DNA from: a bacterium
GTDB lineage: Bacteria; UBP4; UBA4092; JAOAEQ01
DNA: 64,000 nt
Reading direction: 5' to 3'
Assembly (NCBI GenBank): GCA_026416715.1
Contig: JAOAEQ010000019.1
Span: 1 to 64,000, forward strand
The notes under the pieces are model-generated. The model did not search any database, was not told the DNA's origin, and worked only from the letters and a program-made list of their open reading frames with translations. Shown here in pieces: positions 6,405 to 9,332 of the stretch. Position 1 is the stretch's first letter. Each line of letters opens with the position of its first letter. The position numbers and the translations under genes were made by a program.

Positions 6405-6596
6405 GTAAACTCCTGCTAGAACCGAGCAGGGGCGAAATCCAAATGTCAAATCAACCCCGAATGCTAAACGTATAATGAACCTATAGTTAGGATTGTTAGA
6501 AATTTGGAATTAGTTGTGTGCGCCGTGGCGGAGGAAAGTTTGGCGGTTTGAGTTTGAAATTTGGAATTACATTTTGAATTTTGAATTTTGAGAGAT

Positions 6597-8315
6597 ATGG
6601 GATATCTGGTTTTTGCGCGGCGGTATCGACCGCAGACGTTTGATGAGGTTATCGGGCAAGAGCATATCACCCGCATGCTAGCTGGGTCGATTGCCGCGAA
6701 CCGAATTGGTCATGCGTATTTGTTCTCAGGACCACGTGGGGTCGGGAAAACCAGTACTGCCCGTATTCTGGCGAAAGCGTTGAATTGTGTTACCGGTCCA
6801 ACGGCGACTCCATGTAATCAATGTGATAATTGTACAAGCATTACCGAAGGAAGTAATCTAGATATCATTGAAATCGATGCGGCGTCGAACCGTGGAATCG
6901 ATGATATTCGTCAATTGCGTGAATATGTTCGACTCGTTCCCACTGGCGGTAGTAGGTATAAGGTATATATTATCGACGAAGTGCATATGCTGACTCCGGA
7001 AGCGTTCAATGCACTGCTGAAAACGCTGGAAGAACCGCCAGCGCATGCGATATTCGTTCTCGCTACGACGGAAAAACAAAAAGTGCCGGCAACGATTATT
7101 TCCCGATGCCAGCAATGCGATTTCAAACGGATTTCAGTTGCGAATATCGTTAAACAACTCGACCGGATTGTTAGTTCTGAACCGAGTATCGAAATCTCAA
7201 ATGATGAAAAACAGGCGATACTATATACCGTTGCGCGATCAGCTTCCGGCAGTATGCGCGATGCAGAAAGTCTGTTCGATCAGTTAATTTCGTTCACGGG
7301 CGGGAAACCGACGCTCGAACAAACCATCGCTCTGCTTGGCACCATTCCGTCTCAGATACTGTACGAACTGCTTGAACACGTTGCAGCGCAAGAAATCCCG
7401 GCAGCAATCATGAAACTCGATGCATTGATTGACCAAGGGATCGAATACGAAACCTTCCTTGATGATATGCTGCAGTATGTGAGAAGTTTAATGCTCCTGC
7501 AGGTGGTGGATGCGAACAGTCCGCAGCTAGATTTAACGGATGAAGAGAAACACCTGCGGATTGAACAGAGTAAAAAGTTTAAACTGTCGCAGCTGTTGCA
7601 AATGATGAAGTTAACCACCGCCGCAAAAGAACAGTTGCGGAAAACTATTCCCGGTCGTGTCGTTATCGAAATGCTCATTCTTGATTTCATCGAACTGAAA
7701 CAGACTATCCCGTTACCGGAACTGGTTGACCGAGTTAAATCGTTGCAGAAACAAGGTGAACGCGGTAACCCGATACCGAGCTCTGGTAGCGGTGCAAATT
7801 CAGCGGATTTATTCAAGGGTCAACCCGAATCCGCAGAACCGAATCTGGAAAAAAAAACGGTTCCGACCTTCGAAGTAAGCGGTGAATCTACCCTATCGGC
7901 ATTTATTTCACATTGGGACGATATCCGAAAAGTGATCAGTCAGACGAAACCAACATTGTCGGCGCATTTATCGGATGCGCAACCGCTCCGGATAGACGGT
8001 GATACTTTAGTTCTCGGATTCCAGAATGCGAATGGATTCCATAAACGTGCGGTTGAACAACCGGAAAGTCGGCAGTTGGTAGAATCGGTGATAACCCGAA
8101 TGTGCGGGAAATCGTTTCGGATTAAAGGAGAGCTTATTGCGGCGGCACCGAAACCGGAGAAAACCGTGCCGATTCCAATCGTTCAGCCGAAAGCGCGACC
8201 GGAAGAAGCGGTGTTGCAGGAACCAACGATAAAGAAAATCATCAACCTGTTTGGGATTTCTGATGTGAAAGTAAAAAAGAAACTCGGAATTGAGGAGAAA
8301 CCAGAAAATTATTAA
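6597..8315 (+). CDS. dnaX: DNA polymerase III subunit tau/gamma
   Basis: DnaX is the clamp-loader ATPase that organises the replisome. The 572-residue protein opens YLVFARRYRPQTFDEVIGQ and has Walker A GPRGVGKTS near residue 45. A zinc knuckle follows (Cys in LNCVTG, then CNQCDNC), then the DEVH Walker B at about 128 and a sensor region. The tau-specific C-terminal third is divergent. The ATG at 6597 gives the family N-terminus, so the upstream TTG at 6588 is rejected. At codons 418-421 there is a run of nine A's (7849-7857). Gaining or losing one A reaches a stop within about a dozen codons, which would give a gamma-like product of about 426-429 residues. Confidence 0.95.
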   Translation: MGYLVFARRYRPQTFDEVIGQEHITRMLAGSIAANRIGHAYLFSGPRGVGKTSTARILAKALNCVTGPTATPCNQCDNCTSITEGSNLDIIEIDAASNRGIDDIRQLREYVRLVPTGGSRYKVYIIDEVHMLTPEAFNALLKTLEEPPAHAIFVLATTEKQKVPATIISRCQQCDFKRISVANIVKQLDRIVSSEPSIEISNDEKQAILYTVARSASGSMRDAESLFDQLISFTGGKPTLEQTIALLGTIPSQILYELLEHVAAQEIPAAIMKLDALIDQGIEYETFLDDMLQYVRSLMLLQVVDANSPQLDLTDEEKHLRIEQSKKFKLSQLLQMMKLTTAAKEQLRKTIPGRVVIEMLILDFIELKQTIPLPELVDRVKSLQKQGERGNPIPSSGSGANSADLFKGQPESAEPNLEKKTVPTFEVSGESTLSAFISHWDDIRKVISQTKPTLSAHLSDAQPLRIDGDTLVLGFQNANGFHKRAVEQPESRQLVESVITRMCGKSFRIKGELIAAAPKPEKTVPIPIVQPKARPEEAVLQEPTIKKIINLFGISDVKVKKKLGIEEKPENY

Positions 8316-8388: not shown

Positions 8389-8697
8389 ATGAATATTGCC
8401 AAATTAATGAAACAAGCGGAAAAAATGCAGGCGAAAATGCTCGAAGTCCAAGAAGAGCTAGCGAAAAAAACAGTTGAAGCGACTTCCGGCGGCGGAATGG
8501 TGAAAGCGGTAGCGTCTGGCGATGGCATGATTGTAAGTATAAAAATTGACCCGCAGGTGGTATCCGCAAATGATATTGAGATGCTTGAAGATTTGGTGGT
8601 TGCTGCGGTGAATACTGCACTTGAGAATGTAAAATCTCTGGTAACTGAAGAAATGAAAAAAGTTACCGGCGGGATAGGTATCCCTGGTTTCATGTAA
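8389..8697 (+). CDS. ybaB: YbaB/EbfC family nucleoid-associated protein
   Basis: A small 102-residue DNA-binding protein of the YbaB/EbfC family, which forms dimers and coats the nucleoid. It shows the family layout: a charged N-terminal helix (MKQAEKMQAKMLEVQEEL), the sheet segment with GGGMVKAVASGDG, and the ending MKKVTGGIGIPGFM. The ATG at 8389 follows a strong GGAGGGG site. It sits between dnaX and recR as in a very wide range of bacteria, so the three are probably co-transcribed. Confidence 0.93.
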   Translation: MNIAKLMKQAEKMQAKMLEVQEELAKKTVEATSGGGMVKAVASGDGMIVSIKIDPQVVSANDIEMLEDLVVAAVNTALENVKSLVTEEMKKVTGGIGIPGFM

Positions 8698-8732: not shown

Positions 8733-9332
8733 ATGCAGTTTTACGCTCCTGCAATAGAAAAATTGGTTAATGAACTGCAGAAATTGCCGGGAATCGGGCA
8801 GAAGACCGCACAACGGCTAACGTACCATCTGCTAAAATCGTCTCCGGAACAGGTGCAATCGTTATCCGAGGCGATAGCTGGGATAATCGGGAAAATCAAA
8901 CATTGCACGGTATGCAATAATCTGACGGAATCCGAGCGATGCAGTATTTGTGCTGACCCGAATCGAGATACCTCAGTGATTTGCGTCGTAGAACAGCCAT
9001 TTGATATTCTTGCTTTTGAACGAACTCGAGCGTTTAATGGCGTATACCATGTTCTGCTCGGTGCGCTTTCACCGATAGATGGGATAACCCCGGATGATTT
9101 AACCATAGCCTCGTTACTTGCTCGGGTGCAGCGAGGTGGGGTTAAAGAGGTTATTCTCGGAACCAATCCGGATACTGAAGGAGAAGCGACAGCAGCGTAT
9201 CTAGTTAATGTCTTACGCCCGTTTAATATCACTATATCTCGCCTCGGGGTTGGCGTACCGATTGGTGGCGATTTAGAATATGCAGATGAAGTAACGTTAT
9301 CTCGCGCGCTGGAAGGAAGACGTCGCATATAA
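8733..9332 (+). CDS. recR: Recombination mediator protein RecR
   Basis: RecR acts with RecF/RecO to load RecA at single-strand gaps. The 199-residue protein has the N-terminal helix-hairpin-helix segment LPGIGQKTAQRLTYHLL, the zinc finger CTVCNNLTESERCSIC (residues about 54-69), and a Toprim domain beginning VICVVEQPFD with GTNPDTEGEATAAYL. It closes with the Walker-B-like C-terminal GVGVPIGGDLEYADEVTL. The length is normal for the family. It is third in the dnaX-ybaB-recR block, 35 bases after ybaB. Confidence 0.95.
   Translation: MQFYAPAIEKLVNELQKLPGIGQKTAQRLTYHLLKSSPEQVQSLSEAIAGIIGKIKHCTVCNNLTESERCSICADPNRDTSVICVVEQPFDILAFERTRAFNGVYHVLLGALSPIDGITPDDLTIASLLARVQRGGVKEVILGTNPDTEGEATAAYLVNVLRPFNITISRLGVGVPIGGDLEYADEVTLSRALEGRRRI

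Follow-up and report, generated by a model that had tools for sequence, protein, structure and literature searches.

The dnaX gene of this JAOAEQ01 bacterium contains a run of nine adenines (A9) that is probably a retained, functional slippage site of the Thermus type, where transcriptional slippage would allow a gamma subunit of DNA polymerase III to be made beside tau. In the mechanism that we propose, RNA polymerase would realign on the run and generate a mixed population of mRNAs. Transcripts with nine adenines, or with nine plus a multiple of three, would encode tau (572 aa). Those with 8, 10, 11 or other such numbers would terminate 6-9 codons further on and yield a gamma-like subunit of 426-429 aa, in which the ATPase, lid and domain III core would be retained and the polymerase-binding tau domain would be gone. 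The occurrence and frequency of slippage, as well as the stability and use of the short product, are predictions read from the DNA sequence. It has been debated whether bacterial replicases in general contain gamma or whether the subunit is peculiar to a few species, and many bacteria are not known to produce it.

Table 1. Features of dnaX and its proposed slippage site. Positions refer to the window, the whole stretch of 64,000 nucleotides that was analysed.
Feature	Position	Strand	Basis or remark
dnaX, DNA polymerase III gamma/tau subunit	6597..8315	+	572 aa from ATG at 6597; full-length (tau) frame
Clamp-loader core: AAA+ ATPase, zinc cysteines, lid and domain III; residues 1-379	6597..7733	+	Pfam PF13177, PF22608, PF12169
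A9 run, proposed transcriptional slippage site; codons 418-421, GAA AAA AAA ACG	7849..7857	+	
Short out-of-frame tails; each shifted frame has a stop (products of 426 and 429 aa)	7858..7884	+	Translated frames, stop distances
tau C-terminal domain DnaX_C, residues 429-533; missing from the predicted short products	7881..8195	+	PF20964

The dnaX product exceeds the curated cut-offs of both PRK05563 (504 bits, cut-off 400) and TIGR02397 (431 bits, cut-off 250), and by these matches it is a clear gamma/tau subunit. Structures of E. coli gamma match residues 1-375 (1JR3, E=3e-82), and the Pfam match to domain III extends to residue 379. Downstream of the A9 run, DnaX_C was recognized with 36 bits against a cut-off of 26.2, and residues 444-530 weakly match 4IQJ_M, the gamma/tau chain of a Thermus polymerase-tau complex. 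Since the core ends at residue 375 or 379 and DnaX_C starts at 429, the A9 run sits in the linker, some 40 residues past domain III and ahead of the tau C-terminal domain. A product ending at residues 426-429 would thus keep the entire clamp-loader core and lose the tau domain. The earlier note gave the coordinates and frame of the run exactly; its description of the run as lying just after the ATPase and zinc part was right in placing it downstream of the core and loose in that it does not directly follow it.

The earlier note also held that gain or loss of a single adenine would soon meet a stop, and translation of the shifted frames bears this out. A run of ten adenines leads to a product of 429 aa with the tail NGSDLRSKR, eight adenines lead to 426 aa, and eleven to 427 aa. 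The stops of the alternative frames follow the ACG codon by 6 and 8 codons, and full-length tau is encoded in the 0 frame. Both stops are as close as this at 10% of dnaX positions. A search of Rfam around the A9 site returned only a sub-threshold chance match, to CRISPR-DR60 (19.8 bits against a cut-off of 45). The 0 frame is intact and has homologous domains on either side of the run, which implies a true length of 9 modulo 3, and a run that was really A6 or A12 would require an error of three bases. Although the genome is in 64 contigs and homopolymers are error-prone, an assembly or sequencing error is therefore an exceedingly improbable source of the run.

The gene lies in the usual order dnaX-ybaB-recR, with a YbaB/EbfC-like gene at 8389-8697 and recR at 8733-9332, both named by eye from their translations. 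Just 5' of dnaX, at 6496-6590, the AT-rich motif GAAATTTGGAATT occurs twice. It recurs at two other sites of the genome (C8 and C22) and is absent from G001, a genome of the same class.

Runs of nine adenines are strongly avoided in the coding sequences of this organism. Our genome sample comprised 864 kb (800 kb of tiles and the window) and held 589 ORFs of at least 150 aa, or 731,553 nt, and the null expectation was obtained by shuffling synonymous codons within each gene. A single coding-sense run of at least nine A was observed in these ORFs, the one in dnaX, against 61.6 expected (sd 4.3). With the same codon shuffle and sample, A8 runs were fewer too (52 vs 170 expected) and A5 runs were near normal (2383 vs 2755); T9 runs were likewise avoided (2 vs 13.5 expected). 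The deficit of A9 extended to all three codon phases, with 0 of 29, 1 of 18 and 0 of 15 retained. An A9 run is permitted by the protein sequence in 64 contexts, those in which [EKQ]KK precedes a codon whose first base is A. A synonymous G interrupts 63 of them, and the one left intact is that of dnaX; codon usage alone would predict 36.3 intact runs among them. By these codon-level measures, the A9 run in dnaX is not random. Runs of nine A or nine T are shunned in many bacterial genomes (PMC1088944), and the coding avoidance suggests that A9 is slippage-prone in this organism, although slippage during replication would give the same avoidance. Simple dinucleotide shuffling of the window made A9 unremarkable (4 matches vs 5.3 expected). 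Such window-level shuffling was set aside as a test of chance because it ignores the coding avoidance, and the codon-level tests were used instead.

The whole genome, counted on either strand, has 30 A or T runs of length nine or more; only seven of these are A runs that lie within ORFs in the coding sense. The six ORFs other than dnaX (L004, L133, L134, L135, L141 and L142) were judged by eye to comprise an acyltransferase-like protein, a membrane protein, a protein of 1145 aa, a nucleotidyltransferase-like protein, a ferredoxin-like protein (codon 16) and a type IV pilin-like protein (codon 2, MKKKS). These may be further candidates for slippage or for phase variation, or may simply be remnants.

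No close relatives were found for this dnaX in the two genomes of the phylum, its own and G001, the sole other genome of the phylum compared. The dnaX of G001 is 47-49% identical, has a different linker and contains no run of seven or more A; the best full-length match among the named genomes is ~40% identical. A search of the organism's own genome for a 16S rRNA gene returned none. The slippage site is not universal in the class. The earlier note had regarded interruption of the run in close relatives as evidence against two products, and the run is indeed absent from G001, but at 47-49% identity the linker has been exchanged in its entirety, and its absence there is not evidence that the run is without function here.

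It is also conceivable that the run is a chance survivor, an A9 produced by drift in a disordered linker that tolerates change, where it causes functionless low-level slippage or forms a mutational hot spot in the DNA. Such linkers tolerate change and are rich in lysine, an A9 run with no known programmed role persists in six other genes of the genome, and G001 does without one in dnaX. If the seven surviving runs were scattered according to the codon-shuffle expectation, the probability that one falls in dnaX would be ~0.04, which is not negligible because dnaX is lysine-rich. Multiplied by the 1-in-10 frequency of close stops, it becomes ~0.004 if the two are independent. We nevertheless consider chance survival unlikely in view of the 63 equivalent contexts that are broken, and of a recurrence of linker runs across phyla that exceeds the synonymous expectation, is accompanied by early stops in both frames, and includes dnaX genes in which a frame shift is needed for tau.

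This recurrence was found in a main set of 104 other dnaX genes that were gathered regardless of runs, the linker being taken as the 90 codons after domain III. Runs of at least nine A occur ten times in these linkers, against 2.9 expected and a maximum of 9 in 300 shuffles. The GC-rich subset of 58 genes has seven (0.7 expected), and the long conserved core has none in any of the 104. Further dnaX genes were taken from the phyla of G008, G028 and G013 after oddities in their dnaX had been seen; in the enlarged set of 181 genes there are 17 linker runs against 5.1 expected, and the claim of enrichment rests on the 104. The genes with a run in the linker and an intact frame include those of Planctomycetaceae (L087, a gene of 74% GC, and L103), Gemmata (L064), Schlesneria (L100), Phycisphaerae (L111), Verrucomicrobia (L109), Ignavibacteria (L050) and Bacteroidetes (L065 and L076). 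In these nine genes the stops of both shifted frames come sooner than usual (combined p ~7e-8, under a null of positions within the same gene that ignores the relatedness of the species).

Four other dnaX genes, L016, L203, L212 and L247 (of G008, G057, G076 and G125), have a stop in the 0 frame 1-3 codons past a run of A9-A11, and a tau-like tail continues in the shifted frame only. For three of the four shifted tails there are sub-threshold Pfam matches to DnaX_C or DUF3646. These genes are candidates for the making of tau by slippage, and single cases among them may be assembly errors. The dnaX of G028 (L027) is an ORF of 395 aa with no A run; a weak match to a dnaX tail lies ~1 kb downstream on the same contig, and the tail is perhaps separately encoded or lost. 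Additionally, five genes (L014, L022, L054, L219 and L226) carry A9-A10 runs ~140-170 codons after domain III, in or after the tau domain, which gamma synthesis does not explain.

From this survey we narrowly favor the view that poly-A slippage at the linker between domain III and tau is a widespread device of dnaX, repeatedly gained and lost, used in both orientations and far commoner than the described cases. Depending on the orientation, slippage would provide either gamma or tau, and it would be used in planctomycete, verrucomicrobial and Ignavibacteria/Bacteroidetes lineages and in others, including that of JAOAEQ01.

A short product could also arise during translation, by programmed -1 ribosomal frameshifting of the kind used by E. 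coli dnaX, in which two lysyl-tRNAs would slip back on A_AAA_AAA and lead to the product of 429 aa. The heptamer A_AAA_AAA is in phase, and the -1 frame meets its stop after 9 codons. Besides a heptamer, such shifts normally require stimulating elements, and these were not found. There is no Shine-Dalgarno-like motif (GGAG, GAGG, AGGA or longer) at 7801-7849, the 49 nt that end at the run, and there is no downstream stem, as predicted folds are weaker than those of shuffled sequences (z +0.8 for 83 nt, +1.5 for 43 nt, and +1.2). The heptamer A_AAA_AAG is also missing, since A_AAA_AAA is followed by A and then C, and in E. coli A_AAA_AAG is far more shift-prone than A_AAA_AAA (PMC5009743). Moreover, this genome avoids A9 whatever the codon phase. 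Avoidance of A runs irrespective of phase, together with avoidance of T runs, is what would be expected if the hazard were slippage of the polymerase and not of tRNA. We therefore regard ribosomal frameshifting as quite improbable and, with no stimulators of it found, transcriptional slippage as the best reading of the site. A homopolymer alone would suffice for transcriptional slippage, which would fit the phase-independent avoidance of A9, the avoidance of T9 and the presence of stops in both frames. Slippage by an enterobacterial RNA polymerase has been reported on runs of at least nine A or T (PMC6260861).

Slippage in dnaX is of a kind already known, and what is added here is an unusually clean exception within one genome and a small survey across phyla. 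The survey suggests that the device is commoner than has been described. That dnaX alone is intact among the A9-permitting contexts of its genome, and that runs recur in the same linker across phyla, suggests repeated selection for a short clamp-loader subunit. Avoidance of A runs within a genome, combined with the position of a run in dnaX, offers a cheap test that uses the genome only. We infer, as the earlier note did, that this dnaX makes two products; the avoidance of A9, the single unbroken context, the position between core and tau domain, the near stops and the recurrence across phyla all support this.

As precedents, the earlier note named both Thermus and E. coli, of which transcriptional slippage of the Thermus type fits the present gene better and ribosomal frameshifting of the E. 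coli type fits it less. The dnaX of Thermus thermophilus was reportedly shown by Larsen et al. in 2000 to undergo transcriptional slippage at an A9 run. Like that gene, the one described here carries A9 in its sense strand, encodes tau in a single ORF, and has stops nearby in both other frames and a predicted short product that keeps the core; it differs in belonging to another, poorly sampled phylum and in that its slippage is a prediction from sequence. Slippage at A9 in Thermus dnaX results in gamma and tau at about 1:1 (PMC1088944, PMC5009743). With E. coli dnaX the likeness lies in the outcome of gamma and tau, the general location of the site and an in-phase heptamer, A_AAA_AAA in the present case. 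E. coli dnaX, however, has A_AAA_AAG, a Shine-Dalgarno-like element and a stem-loop, none of which is present here, and its shifted frame ends almost at once, whereas here it runs 9 codons. A further set of dnaX genes is divided into two ORFs, mostly by A10, and is predicted to yield tau by slippage (Antonov et al. 2013, PMC3711429). In these genes, as in ours, an A run within dnaX separates the gamma-like from the tau-specific part. In our gene, by contrast, full-length tau is encoded in the 0 frame, and it is L016, L203, L212 and L247 that look like this reversed type.
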